A DNA stretch of 64,000 nucleotides from Zanthoxylum bungeanum (Eukaryota > Streptophyta > Magnoliopsida > Sapindales > Rutaceae). Numbering within the stretch: position 1 is the stretch's first letter; every line of letters starts with the position of its first letter. The notes beneath the pieces are model-generated. The model saw only the letters and a program-made list of their open reading frames with translations, ran no database searches and was not told the origin of the DNA. Shown in pieces: positions 20,073 through 58,447 of this stretch. Location: the NCBI GenBank assembly GCA_019454045.1, contig SKCR01007817.1, positions 62,001 through 126,000 of the forward strand, given 5' to 3'. Made by a program: the position numbers and the translations under genes.

Positions 20073-20090
20073 TGGCGCCATTGCCGAGGA
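20073..20090 (+). other. Primer binding site, tRNA-Asp
   Basis: TGGCGCCATTGCCGAGGA differs at two positions from the exact complement of the plant tRNA-Asp 3' end. Confidence 0.85.
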
Positions 20091-20307: not shown

Positions 20308-21172
20308 ATGGCCGAGAACCAAATTGAAAATCCAGTTGAAAATCCATTTGCCTGAGTTGAAAACCCAGTTAATCAGGATGAAAACGAGTCTCAGCACGGA
20401 GATCCTAATCATCCTATGACACTCAGACAATTCATGAATCCCACTTAGACAGTATCACCATCTTGCATTGTTTTTCCTCCAGATACAACACGTTTAAATT
20501 TTAAATCAGGTATCATCCATCTTTTACCCACATTCTACGGTCTAGAATCAGAGAATCCTTATCAGCACTTAAGGGAGTTTGAAGAGGTATGTAACACTTA
20601 CACAGACCAAAATTGTAGTATGAATATAATTCATTTAAAGTTTTTTCCCTTTTCTTTAAAGGATAAAGCTAAAATTTGGCTACAAAACCTTAGGTCAGGA
20701 TCAATTAGAACATGAGATGATTTACAAGAACAGTTTCTTAAAAAATTATTCCCCCCTCATAGAACAAATTCCTTTAAGAGGAGAATTACAACCTTCACTC
20801 AAGAGTCGGGGGAAATACTTTACCAATATTGGGAGAGGTTTAAAGAAATATTAAATGTTTGTCCACATCACGGGTTTGAAACATGGATGGTGGTCGCCTA
20901 TTTCTTTGAGGGGTTAACACCCCAAGGTAGACAAGTAGTGGAGATGATGTGTAATGGTGAGTTTATGGATAAAGATCCCGAAGATGCACTAGATTACTTA
21001 GAACACATAGTAGAGAATGCACAATAATGGACACAATATGAACCTATGAGTCGTCTGCAAAACCACAATCATCTAGTAGAGGTATGTTTAACCTTAGAGA
21101 AGACCATGACCTTACTGCCAAGTATGCATCTATATCTAAAAAAATTTGAGGCTTTAGAAGCAGGGAAGATTG
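20308..21172 (+). pseudogene. Athila-like Gag, N-terminal and capsid part
   Basis: A single frame runs 288 codons from the ATG at 20308 with no frameshift but four in-frame stops: TGA 20353, TAG 20446, TGA 20713 and TAA 21025. The N-terminus repeats NPVENP-type phrases. From about residue 65 it follows the Athila capsid pattern: LLPTFYGLESENPYQHLREF, KDKAKIWLQNL, DLQEQFLKKLFPPHRTN, then ETWMVVAYFFEGL. Reading frames that keep length but collect stops suggest decay by point mutation after insertion. It is cut at 21172 by the copia-type insertion, and the zinc-knuckle part is lost. Confidence 0.8.
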
Positions 21173-23833: not shown

Positions 23834-26800
23834 ACCCTAATAATTTATCCCACTTGCTCTAGTGTTATTCCATGGTATCATATACACATCCCAATGTGTA
23901 TCACATACTCATGGCCCTCAAGAACTCACCTAGTGCTCCAGAGGTAGGCAACAACAAGTAAGCCCACTATGACAGATTGAGTTTGTCCAACAAACACAAT
24001 CATTTTCCTTAGCATGCATCATTCATATTTTTGTAGAAACTAAATTCTACATCAATATGACTCAGATGTCATATCAACAATGTGCTTCAGCTACTAAGTT
24101 GTCTAAGTATTTACGGATCAAATCTAAAATACTATGTAGACAACGGCAAACACAACACTAATAACAAACTTTTAATCTACGAGGTCACTATGCAACTTCA
24201 TAAGTCAATACTTCATAAGTTGCAACTAATTCCACTCGTACAGTAGAATCATTCGTGACACTCTCACTGCATCTTTTCTGACTCTTTTTGACGTAGACTG
24301 TCTAACGTCATAATTAGACTCAAAATTAATCTGACCCTAATGGTTGCGAACTTTATTCTCCATTAATTAGAAACTCGTTCTTAATATCTCAAAGTTAATA
24401 AAGAACATGTTTCAAGACACATCTTATGGTCTATAGGATATCAAAATAACTCATAACAGTTACGATTAAATTGATATCTCTTATCGTACTCAATATAGTA
24501 TTCATTATGCCATCATCCTATAATGCATAAGATTGATTAGACATTCTAGTCAACATCTCTTTCGAAAAAAGAATCATCATTTACGAAAGATGAATACTAT
24601 ATATAAGACACACACTAACTGTCAAACAGTTATACTAACTGTCATACAGATAGTCTTGTTGCGTCCTTTATTAGATCATATCTAATGTACGATTAATAGG
24701 AGTATCTCACAAGTCTCTTTGTTTTATATCTTATATAAAACTTTATATCGAATATAATGGAGACACCTATTCCCAATGCTTTCACGGAGAAAATAAGACT
24801 CAGGTAAATATTTTACCTCATTATTACCTTAATAATGATAATGTCATTATGATGTAAAATACTAGAAAGAAATTTGTACGCTCCCACTAACCTTTCTATC
24901 TTATATGTATTCTCTATGCTTTGATAAAATCAGATAATCTGATAGATATCAAAATTAGAAAACACAAATTTCCAGAAAGCTCATCCGAGTCTACAATAGG
25001 CTCTATAAGCTAATATACTAAATTATAATCTTAGCATAATACAAACTCTAGGGCCATTCCAAAAAGAACTCTTCAAACTAAGAAATCACAATGGATCTTA
25101 TATTTGAAGAAACCATTCAGAAACGCCACTTTGTATTCTTTAGCTAAAATGTACAATTTAATATCATCATTAACCAATAGATCTTCAATTATTCAATCAG
25201 TGCGACTAGAGACAAGTTTCCTCAGAATCTACAATAGATTGCTGAGTATAACTTTTCTCACTGTCATACTATAAAGGTCAAACCTTTAATAAGCTCACTG
25301 TGCTTTCACTACTTAAACCATTTGCACATTTTATGAACGATTCATAATGAAAGCTCAATCAAGTTCCAAACTTGATCGTAGTAAGCTATGAACAATCTTA
25401 GATCTATGGTTTAATGTTAATTTCCAGAATGGATATCAAATATCATTCCCACTATAAGTTATAGGATAATTTTCTTCGATAAGAAAACAACATAACCATT
25501 GAGTATCAAATACTTTGCGAATGATTCTGACATCCTATAACACTTATATGGAAGTAATAAAAGGGTATTATCATCTTATTAAGTATGTAGTTCCATTTAT
25601 AGTTTATCACGATATTTGACTTCAATAAGTCAAGTCTTTTCTATAATAGTCAACATCCAATGTTACACACTGAGTAATAAATAATTTTATTACTCGAGAT
25701 CGTAGAAAATATATTTTATCGAATAGAATATAATATTCTATTAAATAAAATAAATGATAAACTTCTATCGTACATCCGAGGCGAAAGTAATATCAATTAT
25801 ATAAGAATTATACAAAAGATAGATTCAAATCTCAAACATTTCAAGATTCGAATTTTCTATTTATACACATCATATACGTAACTGTAGAAACTAATGGAAC
25901 ATTAATTAAAATAATGAATTAGTGTTACTGGAGCATAACCCCAAGAGAATTGAAACTAATTCAGTAACTCTCAATATCAAATGAATCAAACCATATATAA
26001 GATTCGATTATTCCCACTTACCAATTCCATCAAGATGGAATCATAGAAGAATTATATTGAGTAAGAATCGTATTTATTCAGTATCCTTAGAACATATTGC
26101 CATAAATTCATATGTTTGATCGTATCAAACATCTTAAGATATTGTTCATGTGTCTTTGAACAATTCAAAGACACATGATGAATTTTAAAGATACAATTTT
26201 CAAAACTTCAGATTGAATATCTTTGAACCAGTCAAGATGTTCTATCCGCATTTCATCAGAAACACGTAACTAAGTCACGACAGTTTATTGACTAAGTTAC
26301 GAAGTAATGAAAACTACCTTAAGCAATTTACAATTCATTAAATTCAATACATCCAATGTATCAATTTAATAAATTTTCTGGTCCAATGACAGTCATTGGT
26401 TAAATGAGATTTAGTCATCTTCCCGAATACAATATTCGTTAAATGGATAAGGATATGCGGTGTGATCTAATATCAGACCATCATTTACCATATGGTATAA
26501 GCATCCAATACTTAAGTGATAAAATGTCATAAAATAATGTTCTAAGTTATTTACTTAACCGAATATTTTTCTTAATGTTAATATATTCGTTAATGACAGT
26601 ACTAGTCATTTTAAAATATGTAACAACTATTTACAAAGAACAAGTAACTATCAAATAGTCGCAAGTTCTGATATCAAATATCGAAACAATCATTTAACAA
26701 TATTTTAAATAACTAGACGGGAGATCTGATATCCAATATCTACAGTTGTCGTATTGTGAAAATCAATATTTTCTATACACAACTATACACATCTTATTTC

Positions 26801-26881
26801 TTTAGCTTTATTATTTACTTTCAAATTATTTACAACATTTGCAAATAATCGAAAAACAAATAGTGCCTCACACGTGACCTT

Positions 26882-27149
26882 TGAATGTCACTAAAGCCAA
26901 GAAACGTCATTATTAGAAAAACAAATACCTAATGGGGTTTTCTTAATGCTAGTGAAGAATCTCGAGACATGAACCAATTCATGTCAATCTTTACTGTATA
27001 AGAAACTATTCTGTCTGAATGTCACTAAAGCCAAGAAACGTCATTATTAGATAAACAAATACCTAATGGGGTTTTCTTAATGCTAGTGAAGAATCTCGAG
27101 ACATGAACCAATTCATGTCAATCTTTACTGTATAAGAAACTATTCTGTC
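26882..27149. repeat. 134-bp tandem duplication
   Basis: 26882-27015 is repeated at 27016-27149. I see one difference (GAAAAAC versus GATAAAC). Near identity in a decayed element points to a recent duplication or an assembly effect. Confidence 0.92.
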
Positions 27150-27991
27150 TAGAATGATGATATCATTATCTATTATAATCCAGAACATATTCTAGAAATT
27201 TGCAACCATAATTGAAGTCAGAAAACATATATAATATGCATGCAGTGGATAAAAGTTTAATTATATCTAAAAATAGAATAAGGAAAATACATAAGCGACA
27301 ATTTTAATAATATTACACAATACATCGGTTATGGATTTTTAACCTAGCAGTGCCTCCCACTACTTTACATAATACCGTAATCCCCAACGGAAATGAGAAT
27401 TCAATAATTAAATTGAATTCCATAATGAGAAGTGGACCCCATGAATATATTTCGACTCACAGCTTTCGTACGTTCTCGCCTACGTATATTCATTAGGTAG
27501 ACAACTCATTGTCAATCACACTCACTGTGACTCATGGGTTCGGTCCTGATCGTTTCTCATTATGACAGCTTTGGCACGTTCACAAGGAGGTGTATCAAGG
27601 TTAAACTTGCCAATGACAAACTCAAGCTACCGATGTAGTCATGACAGCTTTGGCACGTTCAAGATTTCCACTTTCACTTGAATTTGTCTTTTATCATAGA
27701 AGTTCTACCGGCGTAAATGAACTACCTTCAACCATAACTGCACAACTTTGGCACGTTATAGCCATAACATCATGAAAACATTTACATCCGTATTGACAAG
27801 GCGGACGAAGAAACAAGTATTCCTAATACTAGTCACTTTCTTAAAACCTTATTTAAACGGGGATTTTCCAACAAAAGATGTTTTTACTTTATTTAATCAA
27901 ATTAAATAAACACATGCATGTATTAAATAATGATTAAATTAAACATTGAATTTTAAAGGGTTAATCATATCGGGTGTCCAGGATCAGACTC

Positions 27992-28003
27992 GCTCTGATA
28001 CCA
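27992..28003 (-). other. Primer binding site, tRNA-iMet
   Basis: GCTCTGATACCA on the plus strand equals TGGTATCAGAGC on the minus strand, four bases inside the LTR that begins at 28008. Confidence 0.85.
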
Positions 28004-28007
28004 TTTT

Positions 28008-28535
28008 TGTTGGGGTCAAATCAGCAGAAGAAGCGCTGTTCGGGTGAAATCGTAGTTTAAAAATTTTAAACTTACGAATAAATTATTTAGTATCCAATAT
28101 TAATAATTCATTCATATTAAACCTAAACATATTTATTAGATATCATATAACGACATAAAAAATATAGAAACACCGCGACACTTTTACGAAATCATTTTTC
28201 CATAAAATAGCATAAAATGCATTTCCGGCCGAACCGACCGACCAATGCTCATAGGGACTGCCCAGGTCAGCCCCAAGAACTTTTGGACAGTTCGTGGGCT
28301 GCCTGAACAGTGTCCAATTCACTGTTTGGGCAGCCGTTACCCGGTAACGCTATTTTTCACCTTTTTCGCGTATTTTCACTCCGAAACAATTTCCAATAAA
28401 TATTTTTCTTGGGCATTTAAAATAAACCAATTTATTCTAATTACTCAATAAATAAAAACTGAATTTTTATCTGAAAAATCAAATTTATCATTAATTGCTA
28501 TGAGACCCATACACTTTACAAATTAATCATTTTGG
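28008..28535 (-). repeat. Truncated 5' LTR of the minus-strand copia-type element
   Basis: Aligns with 21173 to about 21733, then stops inside the LTR at ...AATTAATCATTTTGG, where Athila pol sequence begins. Loss of the rest of the LTR, the target duplication and the middle of the host gag is explained by one deletion across this junction. Confidence 0.75.
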
Positions 28536-30980
28536 AAATCAAAATATTGAACATGCTTTGCTAGACGCCATCCAACAGATACCATCTTATGCCAAATTTC
28601 TGAAAGATCTAGGCACCGTTAAGAGAAAACATCAAGTAAGAAATAAAGCTTTTCTAGCTGAACATGTAAGTTCCAATCTCTCAACCAATAATGCATTAAA
28701 ATATAAAGACCCTGGCTATCCAACTATTTCTTGTATTATTGGAAATCAAAATATTGAACATGATTTGCTTGATCTTGGAGCCAGTATCAATTTGCTTCCA
28801 TTTTTGGTTTACCAACAACTTAATATTGGTGAGATAAAACCAACCTCAACTACTTTTTTACTTGCCGATAGATCAGTTAAGGTACCAAAAGGAATTGTGA
28901 AAGATGTGTTATTGCAAGTCAATAAATTCATATAACATGTGGATTTTATTGTTTTAGAAACACAACCTGTGGCAGACAGTTATAAGCCAGTCCCTGTAAT
29001 ACTTGGTCACCTATTTTTAGCAACAGCTAACAATTTAATTAATTGCAGGAATGGAATCATGAATATTTCTTTTAGCAATATGACAGTGGAGCTAAATATT
29101 TTTAACATGTGCAAACAACCACATGATGAGGACAATGAAATCGAAAGCATAGAATCAATTGAGCCAATTATGGATGAACATATTCAGGGGAGTTTATCTG
29201 ATCCTATAGAAATTTATACTGCTAATTTTATTGAGTCAAGTGCACAAATAGATTCGGATATTACTAATAATTTTCTACTTGACTCTACACATGTATTGGA
29301 AGACGAATGAGAAAAATTTTTTTTGGAAGAACTGGGAACACTAGAAGAAGGAAAGCACGAGGAAGAACCCAAATTGGAGCTAAAAGCTTTGCCAGAAGGA
29401 TTGAAATACGTATTTTTACAAGATAAACAAACTTACCCTGTGGTAATTTCTTCTCTTCTTACAAACGATAAAGAAGGTAAACTTATAAATGTGTTGAAAG
29501 AACATAAACTGGCAATTGGATGGACTTTAAAAGACATAAAATGTATTAATCCATTAATCTGCACAAACCGAAAACATTTAGAGGATAATGCTAGGACATA
29601 TCGTCAACCCCAAAGAAGATTAAACCCTCACATGAAGGAAGTAGTAAAAACTGAGCTCCTTAAACTTCTTGATGTAGGCATTATCTACTATATCTCTGAT
29701 AGTAAGTGGGTAAGTCCTACACATATTGTACACAAAAAGTCTGGAATTACTGTTGTAAAAAATGATAAAGGAGAAGTAATACCAAGTCGTATTACATCTA
29801 GTTGGCGTATGTGCATTGATTATAGAAAACTAAATGACGCAACTAGAAAAGATCATTTTCCTTTACCATTTCTTGACCAAATTTTGGAAAGAGTATATGG
29901 AAATCCATACTATTATTTTCTTGATGGTTACTCGGGTTATTATCAGATTCACATTGCTTTAGAAGACCAGGAAAAGACACATTCACATGCCCTTTTGAAA
30001 TATTTGCATTTAGGAAATGCCTTTTGGACTTTGTAATGCACCTACAACATTCTAACGATGCATGTTAAGCATATTCAGTGACATGGTTGAACACTGTTTA
30101 GAGGTCTTTATCGATGATATAACTGTTTTTGGAAATTCATTTGATAATTGCTTGAATAACTTGGAAAATGTTTTGAAAAGATGTGAAGAAAAAAGACTTG
30201 TGTTAAATTGGGAAAAATATCATTTCATGACTAATTCAGCAATTGTTTTGGGACATGTTGTATCATCTAAAGGTATTGAGGTTGACAAGGCAAAAATAAA
30301 AGTAATCTCTAAATTTCCATCACCAAAAACAGTTAGGGAAATACGTTCTTTCTTATGACATGCATGATTTTATACGAGGTTCATTAAAAACTTTAGTACC
30401 ATATCCAGAACCTTATGTAACCTCCTATTAAAAGATGCAATATTTGAATAGACAGAAGAATGTAAAAAATCATTCGAAAAAATTATCAGTCTTTTGACTT
30501 CTGCTCCATTATGCAATCCTCTGATTGGTCCTTGCCTTTTGAGCTAATGTGTGATGCTAGTGATTTTGCAGTTGGTGCAGTGCTAGGACTGAGAAAAGAA
30601 GGTAAGCTGTATGTAATATATTACGTAAGCAAAACCTTAAACAGTGCACAAATAAATTACACTACCACAGAAAAAGAACTACTTGTTGTAATATTTGCAT
30701 TGGATAAATTTTGATCATATTTAATTATTTCTTAAACCATTATCTATTCTGATCATGCTGCTGTTAGATATTTGATGTCTAAACATGATGCAAAGACAAT
30801 ATTAATAGGGTGGATTTTGTTGCTTCAAGAATTTAATCTCACAATCAAAGACAAGAAAGGAGCAGAGAACGTGGTTGCAGAACATTTATCAAGACTCACA
30901 AATGAGTAACTAATTGATACAACTCCCATCAATGAGTCATTTCCGATGAGTTTTTATTCTCTGTAAACACAATGCCGTAG
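28536..30980 (+). pseudogene. Athila-like pol: protease, RT, RNase H (broken)
   Basis: From about 28558 the frame reads LLDAIQQIPSYAKFLKDL (end of Gag/start of Pol), then the aspartic protease core DLLDLGASINLLPF near 28770. An acidic linker follows (29100-29310), then RT: WRMCIDYRKLNDATRKDHFP, FLDGYSGYYQI, and the catalytic FIDDITVFG near 30110. RNase H follows: MCDASDFAVGAVLG at about 30545 and NYTTTEKELLVVIFAL. 28558-30036 share one frame with stops at about 28936 and 29308. A frameshift occurs at about 30036-30062, with more stops at 30357 and 30712. It is interrupted at 30980 by a solo LTR, and the reading resumes at 40863. Confidence 0.85.
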
Positions 30981-31325
30981 TGATCGGTGATAAACACACA
31001 TGTAACGCAAGCGCACGTATCACTCAAGTAATATAAAATATATTGATACCACGAGGACTTAATACATATGCTATCAATTTATGAAGCTAAATGTCTACGA
31101 GTATCTAATTGATTTGATTTTTGGTTGGAAGGTGATTTTTATTTAAAACAAGTAAATAAAACAAAACAATGGTAGATTTTAAGTTTTAAACAATAATTTG
31201 AAAATATCCAGGGTTGTGAATCCTACCAATATCTTTCTAAGGATGAGTTGATTACCTTATGCTTGTGTAATATGTCAGTTTATTAACTTGGAACACGAAG
31301 TTATGCAAAAGCCTCTTCCGATGGT

Positions 31326-33494
31326 TGACCGGCGTAAACACACACGTATAACGCAAGCGCACGTATCGTTCAAGTAGTATAAAAATATCGATCCCACGAG
31401 GACTTAATTCCTACTGTTGTTATTAATTATTGAATCTATTTATTTACAAATATCTAATTAAATGGAGAAGAGAATGATTGTTTGATTGGTTGAATGTGGT
31501 TTTGCACAATAAATAAATAAATAAAAAGACAAAAGAAAATACTAAGGAAAATAACAAAAGACACAAAGATCTAGGGTTGTGATTTCTTTTAATATCATTT
31601 TAAAGATGAAGTGGTTATCTTAAAGTTGGGCAATATATTGATTTATTAACTTGGAACACTAAATTATGTGTAAGCCTCTGTCGATGGTCAGACAAAAATA
31701 CCCAGTTTAACCTAATTGAACCATATGTCTATGTCAACCAAATTATCTAGATTCATTAAGATTAAATTCCAATAAAGGCTACCCCCGCCCGACAGGTATA
31801 TTCCTATCCTGTAAGGAAATCTATTAAGGGGTTATCTATCCTTAAGGAAGATCGTGGGCTATTGAGTCTAAGGCTGAAACCTAAAATCCATATGTCTAGT
31901 TCATTTTAGATTTACCAGATCAATTTTATTAATGGCCAGTTAATGAAAAAGCATTAAGATTAAGACTCAATAAATAAATCTTTATAATATCCAAACTATA
32001 ATCTAACCCTTTATAAACCGGTGATATTAAAAGTCATCAAAACCCCAGATAACTAACACATAACTAGGGCTAGTAAAAAAGTAAAAGACATAAAGTAAAA
32101 ATGCTGAAAAGTAAAAGACATAAAGTAAAAGCTGAAAAGTAAATTACAATAAAATAAAATGTTAAGGTAAAAGGAATTACTTTTACTATTACTAATTTAG
32201 ATATCTCCCATAAAATAATATATAAACTTGTGATAATATTACCAACCGACCAATCTGGCGGTATCCTGATTAAGTCAAATTAAGTCCAACCAGCCATTAA
32301 GGTGGTAATATTTGTCCATAAACCAGCCATAAAGGTGGAACCAAAATTAAATTACCAACCGACCAATCTGGCGGTATCCTTTATTAGTCAGGTTTAAACC
32401 AGATTAAAATGAAATTACCAACCGACCAATATAGCGGTATCCTTTTTAAGTCAAATTTTAAATAGTGAATATATTATTTTAAGGGAGATTAATTTAAATA
32501 GCAACAGTAAAAGAATTACCTTTCACCCTAGCTGGGGAAGTTACCTCCTCATGGTGAATAGTAAAAACTGTAAAAAGTAAAAAGTAAAATTAAATTACTA
32601 TTATTACAAAACGTAATTAAAATTATTTACAAAACTAAAAATTAAAAAAAAACTAATAACTAAAAGAAACTAGAGAGAGAAAATATCTCTTTACATCAAA
32701 GAGAAGGGAGAGAATGGTACAACTAAAACTGAAATTTTGAGCTGAATTTATAGGCCCCGGTAAGCCTCCAACGTCGCGACGCCAAGGCCTTTGGCGTCGC
32801 TACGCCAGCTTCTGTCGACGTGGCTTGCTAAGGCTTTGACATGTGGCAATTCGGATAAGAAGATAAGGCGACACGTGGCGAGGCGGCTAAGAGCTCAATT
32901 ATTATGCTGATGTGGCGATGATGTGGCGCTGACGTGGCAAGGCGGCTGAGATCAATTATTGACACCGTAGGATTGCGACACGTGTCACGGCTTGATTGGC
33001 TGATGATGACGTGGCATGTTGACTCGGTTGACCTGCTGACGTGGATGATGACATGGCAAGATGCGTGGCAGAGTTGACTCATTGACCGGATGATGTGGCG
33101 ACACGTAGGATGACACGTGGCACATGTGGAAATAGTAATTGTCGGCACCGTAGGATGATGACACGTGGCACGACGCACGTTAGCAGATCGGTTGTGATGG
33201 TGACACGTGGCACGGCGCACGTTAGCAAAGTCAAACTTCTCAAATTCTGACCCGTTGACCCGGCGCACATTAGCATGACTTGGTGCAAGTTAGGCGTTGC
33301 GACGCGGGAAATTACCAAAATGCCCTTTTCTTCTAATTTTCACTGTTTTGGCCCAAATCACCTCCAAAATGTCCTGAAACTTTATTTATCTACAAAATAA
33401 CACAAAACACATCAAAATATTCACAAAACTCAAGAAACTATACAAAATATTAAGTTAAATGAGTGGGAAATAGTGATAGATTTACCACTCATCA
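31326..33494 (-). repeat. 3' LTR of the LOG-bearing element
   Basis: 2,169 bp; plus-strand limits TGACCGG...ACTCATCA. Nearly colinear with 37373-39500. One extra copy of the CCAGCCAT-AAGGTGG unit near 32290-32340 is the clearest indel between the two. Confidence 0.93.
32745..33209 (-). promoter_or_regulatory. LTR U3 promoter: TATA box and five G-boxes
   Basis: On the minus strand TATAAATT is at 32752-32745. CACGTG occurs upstream of it at 32872, 32979, 33114, 33162 and 33204, mostly as GCCACGTGTC. An inverted pair CGTCGCGACGCCAA / TTGGCGTCGCTACG lies at 32772-32807, between the array and the TATA. The motifs are seen directly; factor binding is inferred from the known G-box/ABRE core. Confidence 0.65.
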
Positions 33495-34810
33495 CACCCC
33501 CAAACCTAACATTTTTCTAGTCCTCGAGCAAAACATAATATAAAATAAAATAAATAAATTAACTAAGCCACTTTCGTAGGGATCACAGTTGCATTTAGCG
33601 TATGCAACAAGCCTTTAAACCCCTAGGTGTCCATAGTGGACGAGTTGTAGTCTCGTGAGGGTTTACATCAATGATACCCACAAACATTTTACAAAAGTAA
33701 AAAGGTATTAAAACTAATACACACAAAAGCAAAAAGACAAGCGAAAAGAGAATAAAGATGTTAGTGACTAATCAGGTGAAACTTCTACTCCAAGTTACTA
33801 GTTATTTTGTTTCATTCTAAATTACTGAATAAATAAATTCTCCGATTATTTTTACCATTCTCCATATACACAGCCAACAAAATATTAAACAACTCATTTT
33901 TGCCCACAACAGTCACAAGTGCAGTTGATAAGAGAGTAATATTTTTGTCCTAAAGTTTTATCAGAATTCACACCTTTTTGCAGCAATGGAATAATTTTTT
34001 CTCATTTTTCTGATTTTTTCTTTGATTTTTCTTTTCTATTTTTTATTTATATACAATATCTTCCATCTATGTAACGAGTGTTAGGTCGGTGGCTCCCAAA
34101 CCAGTTGGCTTTAGGGCACCAGGTGTTAAGACACCCCTACAGACTTAATTACTCAGACTTCAGATATATATATATTTGCAGCATCTTTGATCCATGTAGC
34201 GAGCTTTGGGCTAGTGACTCCCAAACCAGTTGGCTTTAGGGCACTAGGTGTTAAAACACCCTTACAAACTTAATAACTCGGATCTCAGATTTTTTTTTTT
34301 ACTCCATCACTTTTTGAGATGCTTCCTCTGATTAAACTAGAGCACTGAATATTACAAACTTTTCAATTTTAGCTCATGTCTGTATGTTACTATATATGTT
34401 GATAATACCTGCCAACTGAGCATATGAAGATCCATTTTAGTCCGTTTTATGGAGAATTAACAAATTAAATAATTCAAAAGGAAATAAACAAAAATTAACT
34501 TAATTCGAAAATAGGCTTGAGATACGTCTCAGGAGTGGAAACTCCTTACTCTGCTATCTCTTACCAATTTCACCTTTTTAGTCAAAACAAAAAAATACAA
34601 AAACACAAAATATTTTTGTAATTTTTTGAAAATTTTTCAATTTTTTTGTATTTTTCGAAAAATTTTGGACTAAAAATAAAAATAACACACAAACTAAAAA
34701 CAAGGTACTAATAAACTAATTTCCTCCCCCAAACCTAAATGAGACATTGTCCCCAATGTCTTAAACAGTAAAAGAAGGTCGTACCTGGTTAGCTGAAAAT
34801 CTACAGGAAA
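33495..34810 (-). other. 3' UTR of the LOG-bearing element
   Basis: No gene. Two polypurine-like tracts (minus AGGTTTGGGGG) lie at 33497-33510, abutting the LTR, and at 34723-34736, 70 bp after the LOG stop. Between them is a tandem pair of a 125-bp unit (34071-34290). A related sequence in plus orientation is at 9858-10519. Confidence 0.7.
34071..34290 (-). repeat. 125-bp tandem repeat, two copies
   Basis: Copies start at 34071 and 34196. Both contain CCCAAACCAGTTGGCTTTAG and a small GGTGTTAA-ACACC hairpin. A diverged version is seen at about 9915-10010 in opposite orientation. Confidence 0.85.
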
Positions 34811-35464
34811 TTAAAGGTTAAAATCCAGATTAATCCGACGCCTCTTACCACGATCGTCCTCGGACCAATTTATCTTTGAAAGGATAGGGTCAACTCGTGG
34901 TTCATAGGCTATGAGTTGGTCAATTAGATCCGGGGCAGTTCTGGCAGTGAAGAAGAGTTCTTTCAAAGGTTTTGACATAAACCCATTTCTCCGAGCATCA
35001 TCAAGAAACACACAAAGAAAATCATAAAATCCATCAACGTTGAACAGTCCAATTGGTTTCTGGTGTATGTTCAGGTTCGCCCAAGATAGAACTATAAAAA
35101 TTTCCTCCAATGTGCCCAAGCCACCTGGCAAAGCAATAAAAGCATTAACACGGTTAATCATTTCCACTAGTCGTTCAGACATACCTGGCACAATCAGTTC
35201 CTCTCCGTTTGATGGTTCAATAAGATTTGCCTCTGCTAAGGGTTTTGGGATGATTCCCAAAACGTGACTGCCTCCTTCCTGTACAACCTTTGAAACGATC
35301 CCCATAAGTCCAAGATTTCCTCCGCCATATATTAAGTGCATATTTCTTGCAGCTAAGACTCGACCCAATTCCTGTGCTGCTTCTACGTATTATGGTTTAG
35401 TACCAACACTACTACCGCAAAACACACAGATGTTTTCAACTCGTCTTCTTGAAGTGGCTTCCAT
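34811..35464 (-). pseudogene. LOG-like: LOG-family cytokinin riboside 5'-monophosphate phosphoribohydrolase, one premature stop
   Basis: LOG enzymes release active cytokinin bases from cytokinin riboside monophosphates in the cytosol. The minus frame runs 217 codons from the ATG at 35464-35462 to the stop at 34811, the usual length of plant LOG proteins. The N-terminus has ICVFCGSSVGTKP (residues 12-24), followed by an in-frame TAA at codon 25 (35392-35390), then YVEAAQELGRVLAARN. HLIYGGGNLGLMG lies at about 43-55. The family signature PGGLGTLEE is at 113-121 with its glutamates intact. In the usual RK..M motif the arginine (residue 98, SERLVEM) is present but the lysine is leucine. There is no intron, whereas plant LOG genes normally have several, so a retrocopy is likely. 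It lies inside the element, same strand, between ORF-X and the 3' UTR. The single stop is the only clear lesion; a shorter product from a later start would lack the N-terminal nucleotide-binding segment. Confidence 0.88.
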
Positions 35465-35699
35465 GTTTTACTCTGGATGTCTTCAAAAGTGCAATGGCGG
35501 GCTGAATTTATAGTACCTGAAAAAAGGTGAGTAATAATAGCACTAGTATCTTCCAGAGGAGGTTTGTTTGCTAAACAACAAAATGAATCGTGAAAGGTCA
35601 AAAAGTATGGATCCTGTCTACGAAAATAAAGATAATTACAACTGAAAAGCTAATCAAAGCAATAATTAAGGCAACAGAATTGTGTACGCAATACGCCAT

Positions 35700-35830
35700 T
35701 CGCTTAGTATAAATTCATTATGATGCGTCTTAAGAATTCATTCTTTACTCAGCCATCGCAAATGAATTAGCTCTCTTCTTTCTGATTTCCAAACACCATT
35801 CCTTCTGTCTTAAAATGCTCTATTTGTGCT
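35700..35830 (-). pseudogene. ORF-X remnant
   Basis: Read on the minus strand, the segment GGAATGGTGTTTGGAAATCA through GCGATGGCTGAGTAAAGAAT aligns with the 3' end of ORF-X at 42630-42699 of the older element, with a one-base indel and several stops. Only the C-terminal part is recognisable. It shows that both Athila-like elements carry the same order, ORF-X then LOG. No function can be given. Confidence 0.55.
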
Positions 35831-35993
35831 TTTCCCTACAAAAAAAAATAACACACAAAATTAAAAACTCTACAACATGTATACATAAATATGAAAACAA
35901 AAATTACAACAAAGTGCATGGGTTGCCTCCCTGCTAGCGCTAAATTTTTCGTCTTCAGCCAGACGTGACTGAAATCTATCTGTCAATGAGGTT

Positions 35994-37235
35994 TCAATGT
36001 CGTTTTGGATGTCTGATTAAAGACAATCTCGTAGCGTTGCTTTTGAAGGGTTTCTTCCAACGGTAAAGTGGCAAAAAGAATTTTATCTCATTCAGTGCTC
36101 GTGCCGCCTTTTTAATCTTTGTCGCTCTAGTGATTCCTCCAAAGAAAGAAAGAAAATCAGGAGGTGTCGTATGATGCTTGACTTGGAATGGAAGTTCCAT
36201 TCTGTCAAGCTTCTGGTTGATATCTTTGATTTGTACTCCCCGATACAGCGATGTTTCTCCTGAATGCTCTGGATCTTTATTAAGGTCAGACATTTGCTCT
36301 TCCATTTGCTCTATTTCTTGCTCCATATTTTCTTCACATATGTATTTTAGGATCTCAGTATTTAATTCTTCATCTGTCATCTGTGAAATGCATGCTCCCG
36401 AAGTATCAATGTGAAGATGTAAAGATGTGTCTGACATTAGGTCTTCATCCTCTGATCTGAGTGAAATGATTGGCTCAGGTAGATCTTCTTCAAACATTTG
36501 AGCAATGGAAGCTCCAAGATCTTCATTTTGAGGATATAAAGTTTCATCTTCCCTTGTTGTTGCAGTTGGTACAAATAGCTCATCTTCTTCATCCTCGTCA
36601 GAGTCAGAAGAATAATAAAAATCAAATTGAGACTTTGTTGGTTCAGGCTCCTGAATTGATACCTCAGATTCTTGATACTGCTCAGCCTCGTCCTCTGTTA
36701 TGATGTCATGATGAATCTCAGGATATTGAAAGGCTTCTTCAACATTATTTGAATTTGCTCCGTGAGATATGTGATTCAGGTTCTCTGTTAATTGTCTAAC
36801 TTGATATGTCATTCTTTGTATAGACGCTGCTTGACTCTGAATTTGTGCATCAAATTGAGCTTCCCGTTTCTCGAACCAATCTTTGAGTATGTGAAGCAAC
36901 TGATCTTCCTCTGATAGTTCTAGTTGTTGATGAAGATCATAGGTAGATGGTGGATGAGATGGAAAATATGACGGTTCTTCGTACCTTGAATGATTCTGAT
37001 AATTCTGCCACTCTGAAAAGTATATGCATTGATCACTCGGGTGGTTACCATCACAAATCACACATCTCCCCATTTCGTTCTAATGAGCAAATATAGTAAA
37101 ATTGCTTGGTTCTTGCATCCAGTGATAGTCATTGGGCTGGAGAACAGGCCTCAGAAAACCGGACTGTTGCTCCCAGATGTGGGGTGTATCTTCTTGTAAG
37201 GCTCGTAATCTTTCAATCTCCCAATATTGTTCCAT
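35994..37235 (-). pseudogene. Gag-like protein with zinc knuckle (Athila-type, shortened)
   Basis: From an ATG at 37235, 42 codons (MEQYWEIERLRALQ...) run in frame to a TAG (codon 43), then a 359-codon open frame (37073-35994) starts with MGRCVICDGNHPSDQC. That is a CX2CX3HX4C knuckle, one residue shorter between C and H than the classical form. Next comes a helix-rich stretch (EEDQLLHILKDWFEKREAQFDAQIQSQ), then a long acidic region rich in D/E and S. The C-terminus is basic (KKPFKSNATRLSLIRH). Athila Gag normally has a capsid domain before the knuckle; that is missing here. The protein probably comes from the second half of Gag joined to linker sequence by deletion. A small nucleocapsid-like role is possible but inferred. 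Confidence 0.6.
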
Positions 37236-37348
37236 TTTTTTTATCACCTGAAAACAAAAGAAAGAAATAAAAATTACAGATAAAAATAAAGAAAATTAGA
37301 TACAAGTAAATTAGATAGCTTCAAAATTAATAACTCAAGAAAAATAAG

Positions 37349-37366
37349 TCCCCGGCAACGGCGCCA
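37349..37366 (-). other. Primer binding site, tRNA-Asp (exact)
   Basis: Plus strand TCCCCGGCAACGGCGCCA, that is minus TGGCGCCGTTGCCGGGGA, equals the complement of the plant tRNA-Asp 3' end over 18 bases. It is six bases from the LTR. Confidence 0.93.
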
Positions 37367-37372
37367 AAAACT

Positions 37373-39500
37373 TAACCGGCGTAAACACACACGTATAACG
37401 CAAGCGCACGTATCGTTCAAGTAGTATAAAAATATCGATCCCACGATACTTAATTCCTACTGTTGTTATTAATTATTGAATCTATTTATTTACAAATATC
37501 TAATTAAATGGAGAAGAGAATGATTGTTTGATTGGTTGAATGTGGTTTTGCAGAATAAATAAATAAAAAGACAAAAGAATATACTAAGGAAAATAACAAA
37601 AGACACAAAGATCTAGGGTTGTGATTTCTTTTAATATCATTTTAAAGATGAAGTGGTTATCTTAAAGTTGGGTAATATATTGATTTATTAACCTGGAACA
37701 CTAAATTATGTGTAAGCCTATGTCGATGGTCAGACACAAATACCCAGTTTAACCTAATTGAACCATATGTCTATGTCAACCAAATTATCTGGATTCATTA
37801 AGATTAAGTTCCAATAAAGGCTACCCCCGCCCGACAGGTATATTCCTATCCTGTAAGGAAATCTATTAAAGGGTTATATATCCTTAAGGAAGATCGTGGG
37901 CTATTGAGTCTAAGGCTGAAACCTAAAATCCCTATGTCTAGTTCATTTTAGATTTACCAGATCAATTTTATTAATGGCCAGTTAATGAAAAAGCATTAAG
38001 ATTAAGACTCAATAAATAAATCTTTATAATATCCAAACTATAATCTAACCCCTTATAAACCGGTGATATTAAAAGTCATCAAAACCCCAGATAACTAACA
38101 CATAACTAGGGCTAGTAAAAAAGTAAAAGACATAAAGTAAAAATGCTGAAAAGTAAAAGACATAAAGTAAAAGCTGAAAAGTAAATTACAATAAAATAAA
38201 ATACTAAGGTAAAATGAATTACTTTTACTACTACTAATTTAGATATCTCCCATAAAATAATATATAAACTTGTGATAATATTACCAACCGACCAATCTGG
38301 CGGTATCCTGATTAAGTCAAATTAAGTCCAACCAGCCATAAAGGTGGAACCAAAATTAAATTACCAACCGACCAATCTGGCGCTATCCTTTATTAGTCAG
38401 GTTTAAACCAGATTAAAATGAAATTACCAACCGACCAATATAGCGGTATCCTTTTTAAGTCAAATTTTAAATAGTGAATATATTATTTTTAAGGGAGATT
38501 AATCTAAATAGCAACAGTAACAGAATTACCTTTCACCCTAGCTGGGGAAGTTACCTCCTCACGGTGAATAGTAAAAATTGTAAAAAGTAAAAAGTAAAAA
38601 TTAAATTACTATTATTACAAAACGTAATTAAAATTATTTACAAAACTAAAAATTAAAAAAACTAAAAACTAAAAGAAACTAGAGAGAGAAACTCTCACTT
38701 TACATCAAAGAGAAGAGAGAGAGTGGTACAACTAAAACTGAAATTTCGAGCTGAATTTATAGGCCCCGGTAAGCCTCCAGCGTCGCGACGCCAAGGCCTT
38801 TGGCGTCGCTACGCCATCTTCTATCGACGTGGCTTGCTGCTTTGACACGTGGCAATTCAGATAAGAAGATAAGGCGACACGTGGCGAGGCGGCTAAGAGC
38901 TCAATTATTATGCTGATGTGGCGATGACATGGCAAGGCGACTGAGATCAATATTCGGCACCGTAGGATTGCGACACGTGTCACGGCGTGATTGGCTGATG
39001 ATGACGTGGCATGTTGACTCGGTTGACCTGCTGACGTGGCAAGAAGCGTGGCAGAGTTGACTCGTTGACCGGATGATGTGGCGACACGTAGGATGACACG
39101 TGGCACACGTGAAAATATTAATTGTCGGCACCGTAGGATGATGACACTTGGCACGGCGCACGTTAGCAGATTAACTGTGATGGTGACACGTGGCACGACG
39201 CACGTTAGCAAAGTCAAATTTCTCAAATTCTGACCCGTTGACCCGGTGCACATTAGCATGACTTGGTGCACGTTAGGCGTCGCGACGCCAAGGGTTTGGG
39301 ATCCGCGACGCGGGAAATTACCAAAATGCCATTTTCGTCCAATTTTCACTGTTTTGGCCCAAATCACCTCCAGAATGTCCTGAAACTTTATTTATCTACA
39401 AAATAACACAAAACACATCAAAATATTCACAAAACTCAAGAAACTATACAAAATATTAAGTTAAATGAGTGGGAAATAGTGATAGATTTACCACTCATCA
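37373..39500 (-). repeat. 5' LTR of the LOG-bearing element
   Basis: 2,128 bp, pairing with 31326-33494. The innermost dinucleotide is TA on the plus strand where the other LTR has TG, a point change. Confidence 0.93.
38754..39192 (-). promoter_or_regulatory. LTR U3 promoter driving the LOG-bearing element
   Basis: TATAAATT on the minus strand at 38761-38754. CACGTG occurs upstream at 38846, 38878, 38974, 39097, 39106 and 39187. This is the 5' LTR, so transcription of the element, including ORF-X and LOG, would start here. Confidence 0.65.
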
Positions 39501-40862
39501 ATGGTCAAATGCAAATACCCAAAGTAACCCAATTAACTATATTCCTATGTTAATTAAGAAACTCTGAATTCATTAAGTTTAAGTTCCAATTATAGCTACC
39601 CACGCCCGATAGGTATATTCCTATTCTGGAAGGAAATCTCTACGGTGAGTATGAGATCGTGAGCTATTGAGTCTACGGCTAAACCTAAAATCCCTTTTCC
39701 AAGTTCATTTTAAGTTTACCTAATCAATCTTATTAGTGGCCAATTAACAAGAAGCATTAAGAACTAGACTCAATAAATAAACCAATACATTACACAAGAC
39801 ATAAGAAAAGTCAACTGATTAAATCATTGATATTGGTTTTCATCACAACTCTAGACAACGTATTTAGTTACGACACATATCTAGAACTACTAAAGACATA
39901 AATAATAAAACATTATAAAACATATTTGAAAATTAAAAAGGTAAAAGATACAACAATGAAATAAAATATTGGGGTTTGGGGATCCATTTTTATTATTTCA
40001 AATCTAGAAATCTCCCTTATTATAATATATAAATTTGTATTATATTACCAACCGACCATAAATGCGGTATCCTGATTAAGTCAGATTTTAATTAATTCCA
40101 ACCAACCATAAAGGTGGTATCCAATTAAGTCAGGTTAAAATTAATTTAATTAAGTCCAATCGACCATAAAGGCGGTATCCAATTTAGTCAGGTTTTAAGA
40201 TAATTTATATATTATAATTTAAGGGAGATTAATCTAAATTATTATAATAAAAGTTTCACATTTACCCCAGCAGAAAGAAGTTACCTACTCATACTCTTAA
40301 GTAAAACAATGAAATATTTATTACTTAAAATAAAAATTAAATACAAGAAAACTGAAATTAAACAAACAAGATACTCTCTTCTTAGTATTCTAAGGAAACT
40401 CCCCAGAAGAAAGTATGATTTTTCCTTCTGAATCAGACCTCTATTTATAGGCTCCAAAATTGATCCGCATCGCGACGTGTGCTACAGTAGATGCCGGCTG
40501 TCGGTAAATCAATAATTATACTGATGTCATGATGACATGGTGATGACGCAAGTGATAACGTGTTGATGACATGTGACGTCAAGATGATGCGGTGATGACG
40601 CACATGATGATGCGTGTCGGCAGCTGAATTATTGGCCCGGCATCGCGACGCATTGAGTCTTGCGCATTGCGATACGTGTACAATAAATTTCCAATTTTTC
40701 CATTTTTCATACGTTTTAGCCCCGATTTGATTCTAGCAAGTCTCGATATTTTTTTATCTACAAAATAACACAAAATATATCAAAATATTCACAATACTAG
40801 AGAAATCAGACAAAATATTAAGTAAAAGAGGTGGTAAATATTAATATATTTTTCGTTTATCA

Positions 40863-42154
40863 CTTGGTATGCTAATATTGTCAATTTTCTTGCAACATGA
40901 AAGATACCTCCAAACTGGAGCCAGCAAGATAAGAGGAAATCTTTGGCCGAAGTCAAAATATTCTATTGGGATTATCCATATCTGTTTAAGTGTTGACCTG
41001 ATCAGATTTTCAGACGATTCATATCGGACAGTGAGATAAGCGATGTTATTCAGTTTTGTCATTCAGAAGCATGTGGAGGTCATTTTTCATCTAAGAAAAC
41101 TGTTGCAAAAATCTTACAGTGTGGATTTTATTGGTCCACCATTTTTAAAGATACGCACACTTTCTGCAAAACTTATGAAAACTTTCAAAAGTTGGGATCC
41201 ATTTTAAAAAGAAACATGATGTCTTTAAATCTCATCCTTGTTGTCGAAATCTTTGATTGTTGGGGGATATATTTCATCGGCCCATTTCCACCATCACTTG
41301 GATTCTTATATATTTTAGTTGTAGTCGATTATGTCTCAAAATGGGTCAAGACAATTCCTTATCGGAACAATGATCACACAACTGTGATAAAATTTCTATA
41401 AGAAAATATTTTAAGTCGATTTGGAATCCCTCGGGCCATTATAAGTGATGGAAGTAAATAATTTTGTTACAGACCATTTGAGTCCTTAATGAAAAAGTAT
41501 GGAGTCACACACAAAGTTTCCACCTCCTATCACCCTCAGATAAACGGTCAAGTTGAATTAGCGAATAGGGAAATTAAATAAATTTTAGAAAAAATGGTTA
41601 ACCCAAATCGCAAAGATTGGTCTCTTCGACTAACTGGTGCACTTTGGGCATACTGAATAGCTTTCAAAACGTCTTTGGGAATGCCACCCTATCGTATAGT
41701 TTATGGAAAACATTGTCATTTACCTGTAGAACTTGAGCATAAAGCATATTGGGCTATTAAAATATTCAATTCAAACCTTGAAAATGTCGGTCATGAACGT
41801 AAATTGTAATTAAATGAACTTGAAGAGTTAAAGAATGATTCATATGAGAATACAAAAATTATTAAAGCTAAAACTAAGGCCTTTCATGATAGTCTAATTT
41901 CATAAAAAATATTTGAAGTTGGTCAAAAGGTTTTGCTATATAATTCCCGTCTTCATTTATAACCTGGAAAATTAAAATCCAAATGGAGTGGCCCATTTAT
42001 TGTGAAACACGTTTATCCATATGGGGCTATTAACATTAAGAATCCTATGGATGGTGATAAATTTAAAGTGAATGGACAACGTCTGAAACCATTTTTGTTG
42101 TGTTCAAATTTTCGTGAATCTTTTTTCCTATCAAACCCAGTGTACTGTAATTGA
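40863..42154 (+). pseudogene. Athila-like integrase, end of pol
   Basis: It continues the pol interrupted at 30980. Readable motifs are a zinc-binding region (HSEACGGHFSSKKTVAKIL at about 41060), the core start GIYFIGPFPPS...YILVVVDYVSKWV near 41270, then [26 protein letters not shown] near 41510 carrying the glutamate of the DDE triad. Further on are [26 protein letters not shown] and the C-terminal [17 protein letters not shown]. The reading is almost colinear, with stops near 41399, 41458, 41578, 41655, 41807, 41903 and 41959. The terminal stop is at 42152-42154. Inactive. Confidence 0.8.
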
Positions 42155-42414: not shown

Positions 42415-42699
42415 ATGATGAGGCTTCTTATGATTCATGGTATTTCTGGTGATATTCGTTGGGTAATTGAAGTAAAAGTTTGCTTGACAGATGAGTCATC
42501 TGAATCTTTCATTTCTTACATGTCTGGTTTAGGGAAAAACACCTATGCTAAAAAACGAAGAGCTAAACCATTAGGTGTTTGTTATAAATATGCACGATGT
42601 ACTTGCAACACTCGTTGTCGTTCTTTAGGAATGATGTCTGATAATCGCAAAGATAAAATTCAATTCATTAGAGATGGCTTGAGTAAGGAGTCTTTGTAA
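42415..42699 (+). CDS. ORF-X, unknown protein downstream of pol
   Basis: A 94-codon open frame lies 260 bp after the end of pol in the old Athila-like element. It is basic and cysteine-bearing (GVCYKYARCTCNTRCRSLG), without a signal peptide or clear membrane segment. I do not recognise the family. A degraded counterpart lies just upstream of LOG in the other element (35700-35830), so it is part of a shared 3' module. Its position fits the third ORF (often called env-like) of Athila elements, but no envelope-like features are visible. It may be a fragment of a longer frame: related low-quality reading continues towards 42860. Confidence 0.4.
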   Translation: MMRLLMIHGISGDIRWVIEVKVCLTDESSESFISYMSGLGKNTYAKKRRAKPLGVCYKYARCTCNTRCRSLGMMSDNRKDKIQFIRDGLSKESL

Positions 42700-43179
42700 A
42701 GAGTCTTTAGATGATATATCATTGACTCTTGAGACGTATCCTAGTGGATATGTTCATCATGAGATTCACAAGTTACATACACAATTTCAAAAAGAAAGAT
42801 AACAATACAGTCTCGGGAATCTGAGTTTAAAAGACCCTGTTGGCTAATTTATAAGAAAATTGGATGGGAAGCCTATCCCCGACCCATAGAGGGCATTCAA
42901 GCCGTTATTGGACGTAAATCCAAAAGAAGATGTAAGCCACAATCACAACTACCAGTACATATTATTTTAAATTATTGCTTTGATTTCCTTTACTTTTTTA
43001 TTGTTTTGATTTTCTTTTTGCCGACAGTATCTAACCTTTTTTGTTCACGATCTATTTTCCTAATAATTTTCATTTTGCAGGTATTAGTGCATTTATTACT
43101 CACCCTTTTAAGGATCTATAAATTCAGCTAGGTAAGAGAGATAACACAAAAGGAGACAACTTCAAAATGACGATTCACT

Positions 43180-43440
43180 AATATCTGTGTGTTTTGTGGA
43201 ACTAGCTCTGGAACTAAATCAGAATTTGTTGAAGCTACGTGAGAATTGGGTAGAGTCATGGCAAATAGAAACATGCACTTATTATATGGCGGTGGCAATC
43301 TTGGATTGATGGGATGTATTTCAAAGGTTGTACAAGAAGATGACAGTTAAGTTTTGGTGATCATTCCAAAACCCTTAACAGATGACAACATCATTGGAAA
43401 ATCAAATGGAGAAGAATGTATTATCCCATGTATGTTGGAA
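43180..43440 (+). pseudogene. LOG-like: LOG-family fragment, 3'-truncated
   Basis: The frame reads ICVFCGTSSGTKSEFVEAT, stop, ELGRVMANRNMHLLYGGGNLGLMG, then KVVQEDDS, stop, VLVIIPKPLTDDNI and EECIIPCMLE. This is colinear with residues 11-95 of the LOG copy at 34811-35464, with two in-frame stops. The upstream ATG (43167) is out of frame. The PGGxGTxxE active-site half is missing: homology ends at about 43440, where unrelated sequence begins. The non-coding sequence just upstream (GGTATTAGTGCATTTATTACTC..., TATAAATTCAGC) also matches the other element, so both descend from one capture event. A TTTTGCAG at 43074-43081 resembles a splice acceptor. Confidence 0.8.
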
Positions 43441-44103
43441 AATCAAACTCAATTTTTGGAGACGAACAACTTTCGTGTTGAACACTTTTCGAAATTTGCA
43501 CCAGAAGAGCTTCAAAATATGAATTTTCGAGAAAACCCCATGAGAGGAACCTGATTGCAAATTTACGGGGTCAAAACGTAATTTTTCGAAACTTTTCTAT
43601 ATATACCCAATCTTTTCTGAAATCACGAAAATGGCATAAGAAACCAAAATATCCCTACTCGACCCCTTCCCCTCAAAAGGCGAACTGAGTTTTCTTGGCT
43701 CGTCGGCCGGCCTGTTGACCTAGGGGGTTGTGCCTAGCCAACCCCCGTCTAAAGGTGGTCAGCGGCGGCTCTGAAACCACCGAAAACGGTGGGAAATGGA
43801 AGAAATATCCACGCACATCGATTTATCGATCCCGGTTTCTCGTTTCGTTTCACGACCCGAGCCACCCACCAAATCAATGCTCTCGGAGAGTACTAGAAGT
43901 TGGCGGTGACAAATTTTCCGTTTCGTACACGACTGCACGTGAAACAAGGAAATAAGATTTAGATTAATAGTAACCCATGGTAAACAGTAGCTCCGATCGA
44001 AATTCCATCGACTCTTGCACGTTCGTGTGATCGTTTGGAGTCCGTATATGCCCTCAAAATCTCGGTAAGACTTTCCGGTAAAAACTCGCTAATTTCACGT
44101 TTA
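43441..44103. other. Unassigned sequence
   Basis: Relatively GC-rich compared with its surroundings. Two short opposed open frames (43728-43955 and 43947-43759) show no domain. A CTATATATACC box is at about 43596. It could be part of another retroelement LTR or leader. It joins the LOG fragment on the left and the antisense copia RT on the right without visible duplications. Confidence 0.4.
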
Positions 44104-45148: not shown

Positions 45149-47084
45149 TGTTGGACAATTATGACCCATAGCGTCACTATTTGTAAAAGTCATTGTGGTT
45201 TTTGTACAAATTAACTATGTGACAATGGAAATTGCATTTTATCATTTTGTAATTAGATTACTTGTATATATAAATGATAAAAGTCCTTATGATTAGTTCC
45301 AGATTATAAGATATGAGACAATATCAATCCATAAAGGTTTAATCATTAAATATCCCTAGTCATAGTATTATCGAGACTGGACATCGATAATGCGGAATAG
45401 ACTAGTATTGCACTTGTGCGTGTTATGGAAGCGTAACAACATAGTTCTCATATATTTAAATACTTATGCAAGTGTGATAAGAGGTTGTGTTTACCGATGG
45501 TACGGAAACAGCTTCGCTCTGGATAGACCCCGCGGAATCCCATTGGTAGTATGGCTATGTGTCTATGGGAATCCGATTCAGGGTAGGTGTATTTGGTCTT
45601 ACCTGGGACTTGCATCGCTAGTACTTGTGACAATCAATATGCTTTGGTTTTGGTCGTCCGGGACTTTAACAGGTTCTGTGTACGCCTCTTCTAGGTTTAT
45701 TGAATATCGTAGTGTATTGGGTGTGATGTCAAGACAGAAGTATCACTTCAGTCACATGGAGATGATGATCACGCAGGGATACATAACCGATTCTCTATTA
45801 TGTTGCAACTATCGGGATAATATGACAATGTCATGATTATCCGATTATAGAGACTAGTTGCTAGTGATCCGATATATGCTACGTACGGGGCAGACACTAT
45901 TCCAGCCCCATGCCTTGCATGTGACATCTGATACTGGATCGCAATACGCAATACTACGTATACTACGCCTGTTATAGATTACATATTCCTTAAAGAATAT
46001 TTCTGGAGAATTAGGTAGGCACGGTGCTTTGCTAGAAGCCAACCATGTCTCGTAAATCGGTAAGAATGTAGTACAATGTACGCATGTGTTCGGATAGTTC
46101 GACGACCGGATTTACTGCCAACATATCGAGGGATCACATGGGTCGCTTCTCGAAGATTCACCGATGACGTATGGCTCGAACATAATTAATCTAGGATTAA
46201 TTATAAGAGAGAAAATTAATCTAGGTTTAATTACGGGGAGAATTATCTGGGATAAAATTCAATTAAAAGAGAGAGAACGATTAATTCGGAATTAATCGAT
46301 AAAATAATATATTCGATATATTAAATGAAATTAGATTTCATAACGGAATTAAAATTGGATTTTAATTCGGGCGAATGAATTAATTTAGAATTAATTCGCG
46401 AGCGACTTTAATAGTAATTTTGCTAGGCATAATTATTTAATTAAATTTGATTTAATTATGTCGCAACGGAAAATTCGTTAAATCGGAATTAACAAACTGG
46501 AGCCCAGAATGTGTTTGCGGGCCCACTCGGATTTTGAATTCAAGTGGGGCCCACAAGTCACATCACTAGTCACATCACCTAGTCACTTTAATCAACTTTT
46601 AGTTGATGGAATTTGGTGGGTGGTTGATAACTTGTTTAACACACAAGTGTGAAGTGTGATGGACTTTTACCAACATTTGGTATATCATTATTTTGGTTTT
46701 TTGAAAATCAAATACAACACTTTCACTCAACTCTCCTATCTCTCTCATCACCGAAAATTGCCTCTCCCTCTCCTAGTATTTGGCTTGGCCGAATACTACC
46801 AAGAACACAAGGAAGAATTGTTTCAATTTTTCAAGCGCTAGCACACTCAATGAATCATACTTAGGTGTTAGGGAAACCATTCCCATTGAGCTTGGAATCA
46901 AAGATAAAGCTTAGAGCTTGATACACAACTTTGGAGGAGCTTGGAACAACTTCAAAGAGAGCAAAATTTTTGTTCTCTACACATCCTATAACCGATCAAA
47001 GTGATATATTTCCGCTATACTTCTTTACGTATTCACATGATTTTTTGCTTGAAATGATCATGGTTTGACCTTAGAAACTCAACA
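45149..47084 (+). repeat. 5' LTR of the copia element
   Basis: 1,936 bp, TGTTGGACAATTATGACCC...TTAGAAACTCAACA. TATATATAAAT at 45265-45275 is a candidate TATA box. Confidence 0.93.
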
Positions 47085-47085
47085 A

Positions 47086-47097
47086 TGGTATCAGAGC
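47086..47097 (+). other. Primer binding site, tRNA-iMet
   Basis: TGGTATCAGAGC, one base after the LTR: the standard plant copia primer site. Confidence 0.95.
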
Positions 47098-53185: not shown

Positions 53186-53187
53186 GC

Positions 53188-53199
53188 CAAGTGGGAGAT
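53188..53199 (+). other. Polypurine tract
   Basis: AAGTGGGAGAT directly before the 3' LTR, three bases after the pol stop. The same tract precedes the LTR at 449. Confidence 0.88.
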
Positions 53200-58440: not shown

Positions 58441-58447
58441 TATCATG

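Follow-up and report, generated by a model that had tools for sequence, protein, structure and literature searches.

The closest described relatives of the elements analysed here are Gypsy consensuses that contain YgdH, the domain of LOG proteins. Such consensuses are reported from Citrus sinensis and C. clementina and, with the filter off, from Populus trichocarpa (PMC9289625, which cites Steinbauerova 2011). As in the elements A and B described below, a LOG-family domain is there an extra domain of Ty3/gypsy. Unlike the present analysis, the parts of that account available to us describe neither the structure of the gene nor selection on it, and no tail, promoter or neighbour of the NABP type. 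The sequence-only reading of this locus knew of no described Athila-type element with a LOG gene; novelty in kind is not supported, LOG/YgdH in Gypsy elements being published already (PMC9289625). The LOG gene of these elements is thus of a known kind, and what may be new is its tail, a promoter-like copy before it and its NABP-like neighbour. Among the matches listed from the open-access literature, with subscription papers mostly outside it, no title dealt with element-borne LOGs that have this kind of tail, and none with a carlavirus-like ORF in LTR elements.

A parallel is offered by an orchid Gypsy lineage with an AlkB-type RNA demethylase, likewise a host-type enzyme, as described in the portion of PMC9289625 available to us. 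The enzyme is a different one and has in vitro activity there, whereas the LOG described here is known from sequence. The general plan is like that of Athila elements with extra ORFs, which, in the accessible parts of two accounts (PMC6317226, PMC7264820), resemble element B in the order gag, RT, RH, INT, in an Asp-type primer site and in extra ORFs after pol. Unlike Athila, the scanned pieces gave no match to PF03078 (Athila ORF-1).

Element A and Its LOG Gene

The window is the whole 64-kb stretch of DNA that was analysed. Element A and the LTR into which it inserted comprise the following features.

31326..39500, minus strand: element A, a non-autonomous LTR retrotransposon carrying LOG, about 8.2 kb, with an LTR pair and the TSD ATGGT
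37373..39500, minus strand: 5′ LTR of A, 93% identical to the 3′ LTR in a gapped alignment, K2P 0.030
37349..37366, minus strand: primer binding site of A, 18/18 to TGGCGCCGTTGCCGGGGA, after the 5′ LTR
35994..37235, minus strand: ORF X, a CCHC-knuckle frame interrupted close to its start by one in-frame stop, 5 protein-database relatives
35742..35803, minus strand: what is likely left of the end of B's NABP-like ORF
35501..35513, minus strand: TATA-like CTATAAATTCAGC before the LOG of A, identical to copies in both LTRs of A
34811..35464, minus strand: the 217-codon LOG frame of A and its stop, interrupted by one TAA, at codon 25
33495..33510, minus strand: polypurine-type tract, preceding the 3′ LTR, read from the sequence
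31326..33494, minus strand: 3′ LTR of A, pair of the 5′ LTR
30981..31325, minus strand: one part of LTR O, an LTR related to those of A, into which A inserted
39501..40863, minus strand: other part of LTR O

An LTR pair, a 5-bp TSD, a primer binding site and a polypurine tract together mark A as an LTR retrotransposon. The duplication noted in the sequence-only reading is present on both flanks, as ATGGT on the plus strand and ACCAT on the minus strand. The 3′ LTR is bounded by TG..CA and the 5′ LTR by TG..TA. The two LTRs have diverged by a K2P of 0.030 over 2103 aligned sites; under two plant rates, A would be about 1.2 to 2.2 million years old. The primer site, for which 100 shuffles gave a mean of 0.00 matches, is of the tRNA-Asp type. 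Since no gag-PR-RT-RH-INT frames were seen in A, either among the open frames of the window or with Pfam, A is considered non-autonomous. The Athila label of A comes from this primer site and from its coding relative in this window, element B, rather than from an RT of its own. Upstream of LOG lies ORF X, for which a gag remnant was considered as an identity because of its CCHC knuckle; ORF X matched no Pfam family at 0.001, and three ORF X relatives gave nothing above cut-off.

The LOG of A is a single frame without introns, read from 35464 to 34811, on the same strand as the element that encloses it. The part that follows the TAA, 185 residues, matches PF03641 (Pfam, E 3.5e-34) and TIGR00730 (NCBIfam, E 5.4e-38). 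The intronless 217-codon LOG-family frame with a TAA at codon 25, and its place inside an LTR element, were read correctly from the letters. The NCBIfam equivalog NF058542 scored 91.6 bits, its cut-off of 300 lying far above. The best solved-structure match of the same 185 residues is Arabidopsis At2g37210 (2a33; 3.6e-47). The active-site motifs of LOG proteins, GGGxxGLMG, Arg and PGGxGTxxE, are present in the window copy. Its frame is broken by the TAA, and relatives with whole frames exist.

A Second LOG-Bearing Element in the Window

The arrangement was to be dismissed as a one-off insertion if this locus proved to be its only instance. A second LOG-bearing element, B, is present in the same window, at 20073-43458 on the plus strand. 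B is older than A, and its gag, RT, RNase H and integrase are in pieces.

20073..20090, plus strand: primer binding site of B, 2 mismatches
20449..21027, plus strand: gag of B, PF03732 at 1.8e-11 on 20716-21024 and at 0.022, under cut-off, on 20449-20712
28504..30711, plus strand: RT and RNase H region of B, domain matches from 29311, with protease expected before them and unscored by Pfam
40868..42151, plus strand: integrase region of B, start at about 40868 read by eye, LTR O and the A inside it lying between RNase H and this region
42415..42699, plus strand: 94-aa Cys/Arg-rich ORF of B, Carlavirus NABP-like (PF01623), between integrase and LOG
43116..43128, plus strand: exact copy of CTATAAATTCAGC before the LOG of B
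43150..43458, plus strand: LOG relic of B, truncated after about its first 102 codons, which include stops; at most 77% to P0007 by tblastn

The primer site of B is also of the Asp type. In the RT and RNase H region, PF00078 matches at 2.7e-8 on 30056-30355 and at 1.8e-5, under cut-off, on 29311-30033, and PF17919 matches the RNase H region at 4.2e-19. In the integrase region, PF17921 matches at 1.8e-8 on 40997-41398 and rve reaches 0.023, under cut-off. The order of these pieces is gag, RT, RH and INT, with the protease unscored by Pfam. From the order, the strand and the intervening insertions, we infer that the pieces belong to one element. It is split by a repeat-flanked insertion (repeats 21170-21679 and 28005-28504) and by LTR O (30981-31325 and 39501-40863) with A nested in it. 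No additional RNase H was seen between RH and INT of B, a junction that LTR O splits; such an additional RNase H is given as a mark of Tat in the accessible part of PMC6317226. The LOG of B sits 3′ of the integrase. Extra ORFs of such elements are often placed downstream of the integrase.

The first of the two insertions, 21170-28504 (plus strand), lies in the gag-protease region of B and has direct repeats of about 500 bases at its ends, 90% identical. It holds no frame of at least 120 aa. Within it, at 26882-27149, are two tandem copies of a 134-base unit with 99% identity.

A third element, C (9869-12337, plus strand), is a relative of A of which a 3′ internal end and an LTR are present. 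No LOG was found in C, which, however, ceases to resemble A at 9869, short of the place where a LOG would be expected.

Probable Common Descent and Selection

A and B share a homologous stretch of about 170 bases (score 74; at most 33 in 1000 shuffles), which in A ends about 36 bases 5′ of the ATG. A common LOG-bearing ancestor is therefore the most likely origin of both LOGs. The segment 35742-35803 of A aligns at the DNA level with the end of the NABP-like ORF of B (score 44; maximum of 300 shuffles 33), as a deletion derivative with a retained LOG would be expected to show.

Comparison of the two LOGs gave dS 0.82, dN 0.20 and dN/dS 0.24 (0.13-0.44 in 500 bootstraps). This ratio comes from one pair of sequences, the only two DNA copies compared, and from 90 of their 94 shared codons, four being dropped for stops (one in A, three in B). 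Decay of both copies would push the ratio up. The value suggests that the LOG protein was kept by selection while inside the elements. A resident, selected LOG in an Athila-like lineage is thus well supported by the sequences of two elements. The proposal that LOG belongs to a retrotransposon family is borne out by the second element with its homologous flank, by the dN/dS of 0.24 and by many relatives whose contexts were unseen; we regard it as very probable that LOG is a resident conserved gene of the element lineage.

Relatives of the LOG Protein

Relatives were taken as the best 120 of 2352 protein matches, and they are known from protein sequences, their genomic context unseen. The first six of these 120 are 83-87% identical to the LOG of A, 87% being the highest value, and 69 of the 120 are exactly 217 aa long. 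Among the matches listed, proteins of Populus, Xanthoceras, Reevesia and Diplodiscus stand at 49-56%, and these may be host genes.

A tree was made of A, B, the 96 of the 120 relatives that have 200-255 aa, and 21 host LOG3-type proteins. The host comparison set is of the LOG1/3 type; the 21 host rows are every fourth of the 82 with 205-225 aa out of 120 host proteins. The host rows and all the others form the two sides of a 100/100 branch, with A pairing with P0001 and B with P0007.

Depending on the position, 87 to 96 of the 96 relative rows retain the GGGxxGLMG glycines, Arg98 and the PGGxGTxEE residues. Positions 50, 96, 99, 100, 101 and 116, which lie near the active-site motifs, are the same in 80 to 82 of the 82 host rows; in the relatives, they are mostly changed or no longer fixed. 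At position 98, Arg is replaced by Gln in 8 of the 96 and by Leu in 1. Given these changes, the enzyme of the relatives may be altered.

An AlphaFold2 model of the intact relative P0001 has a mean pLDDT of 82.7 and aligns structurally with 2a33 at E 1.1e-20 and TMt 0.93, with 47% identity. The Rossmann fold of PF03641/TIGR00730 is accordingly found in the window copy by profile and in the P0001 model by structure. At2g37210 is thus alike in fold and main motifs and close in length (215 aa versus 217), while the basic and LxLxL tail of the relatives replaces the host C-terminus. We consider it likely that the intact relatives are active enzymes.

Two relatives, P0011 and P0013, have N-terminal extensions whose best matches in the window fall, weakly, in the upstream flank of LOG: P0013 at 0.036 in A and 0.094 in B, and P0011 at 0.075 in B and 0.53 in A. 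These matches are no more than a hint. A scan of viral contigs (IMG/VR) found no relatives of the LOG alignment.

The C-Terminal Tail

The strict pattern LxLxL occurs in the last 12 residues of 88 of the best 120 relatives, and the relaxed pattern [LI]x[LI]xL in 96. Neither occurs in any of 120 host LOG1/3-type proteins. Trp and basic residues are present in the tails of 107 relatives, 85 of which have the strict and 93 the relaxed pattern; shuffling these 107 basic tails yields strict LxLxL in 17%. Among 28 representatives with less than 80% identity, 20 have the strict pattern. Five relatives that adjoin the host side of the tree (P0039, P0041, P0042, P0113 and P0117) have the basic part without LxLxL.

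By entropy among 217 columns, columns 213, 215 and 217 rank 80, 53 and 67, whereas columns 214 and 216 rank 176 and 200, among the most variable. This alternation of conserved and variable columns is the pattern of a short linear motif. Column 211, where a longer motif would have its first Leu, ranks 152 and is more variable than most, which counts against the longer motif. The tail of the P0001 model has a pLDDT below 50, as a flexible tail would give. LxLxL is described as an EAR repression motif (PMC6283911, PMC9956375, from the available parts of both), and the relatives carry this EAR consensus. The degenerate tail of A, KRRRINLDFNL, departs from LxLxL. It is tempting to propose that the tail binds TOPLESS-type corepressors, although we offer this only tentatively.

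The Promoter-Like Copy and the NABP-Like ORF

The 13-base word CTATAAATTCAGC has four exact occurrences in 64 kb, one in each LTR of A and one before each LOG; 0.11 are expected with one mismatch allowed, for a word that was picked after the sequence had been read. Alignment of the LTR with the region upstream of LOG scores 33 in A and 28 in B, against shuffle maxima of 27 and 26 (2000 shuffles each). In A, TATAAA lies 48 bases before the ATG. From this placement, we infer that the LTR-type TATA copy could act as a promoter for LOG.

The 94-aa ORF of B matches PF01623 (Carla_C4) at 7.1e-5, with 23.1 bits against a cut-off of 20.9, over 36 residues. The core of the ORF thus resembles the carlavirus nucleic-acid-binding protein (NABP) above the cut-off, over these 36 residues only. 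PF05515 reached 0.014, under cut-off, and NCBIfam gave no match. None of ten control forms of the ORF (1 reversed, 9 shuffled) passed any cut-off, the best E being 0.0023, and the IMG/VR scan of viral contigs found no relatives. The ORF is likely related to the carlavirus NABP, the match being short, and it may be a virus-like accessory gene that encodes a nucleic-acid-binding protein in a retrotransposon.

Possible Role of LOG in the Elements

Our best explanation, which we hold to be probable as a whole, is that an Athila-like (Ty3/gypsy) lineage has long harboured LOG as an accessory gene. A spliced plant LOG transcript would have been captured once by an element, and A would be a deletion derivative in which LOG was retained. 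LOG would be expressed from the element, perhaps by an internal promoter, the LTR TATA-like copy before both LOGs. In a cell with an active element, the enzyme would convert cytokinin nucleotides to free cytokinin and so hold that cell in a dividing state, favouring expression and inheritance of new copies. Through the basic and LxLxL tail, a part of the protein in the relatives would reach TOPLESS-type corepressors in the nucleus. Of these steps, the benefit to the element through cytokinin is a suggestion that we consider somewhat short of even. Against the explanation stand the broken LOG of the window and the relic state of B.

LOG may instead have been a passive passenger, a cDNA captured by chance and useless to the element. 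Gene capture by plant LTR elements has been reported, and the stop in the LOG of A and the three stops in 94 codons of B speak for this reading. A passenger fits poorly with a dN/dS of 0.24 between A and B, although part of that divergence postdates decay, with the retention of LOG in A, which lacks gag-pol, and with the 217-aa length shared by 69 of the best 120 relatives, contexts unseen; we judge it improbable. Still less does the locus look like a host LOG gene hit by LTR insertions and associated with them by position alone. The window is indeed a nest of insertions; one intronless frame within one LTR pair and TSD, and a homologous flank in a second element on the opposite strand, make that reading improbable in the extreme. 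It is the second element and the dN/dS that place both a one-off insertion and a host gene so low.

A different function is conceivable for a resident LOG, namely, that its fold is a scaffold and the tail recruits TOPLESS-type corepressors, enzyme activity being secondary or lost in some lineages. The relaxed tail in 96 of the best 120 relatives against 0 of 120 host LOG1/3-type proteins, the conserved columns 213, 215 and 217 between highly variable ones, the low pLDDT of the tail, and the changes of Arg98 (9 of 96) and of six other host-fixed or nearly fixed positions would all suit such a nuclear adaptor. On the other side, nearly all rows retain the glycine and PGGxGTxEE motifs, variability at column 211 exceeds that of most columns, the tail of the window copy has NLDFNL instead, and binding is a prediction; we think a primary adaptor role unlikely. 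A resident accessory gene whose product would act as an enzyme is our preferred reading. A broader picture, which we put forward as rather doubtful, is that of a lineage with a virus-like accessory set beside pol: a LOG with a basic and EAR tail, acting on cytokinin and corepressors, an LTR-derived core promoter and a relative of the carlavirus NABP.

The locus is a concrete case on which one can test whether a retrotransposon has retained a host hormone enzyme through selection while remodelling it. Should both enzyme and tail be functional, elements of this kind could influence the condition of the cells they replicate in. The case bears on why many plant Gypsy elements retain extra genes after pol.

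Other Features of the Window

No Rfam family matched the 64-kb window at gathering scores. A probable Copia-type element lies at 45149-55146 (plus strand), with direct repeats at 45149-47084 and 53200-55146 that are 94% identical and a gag-like frame (PF14223) between them. Further downstream, 57715-58852 and 62965-63935 show overlapping self-matches like those of imperfect tandem repeats, with open frames across both.
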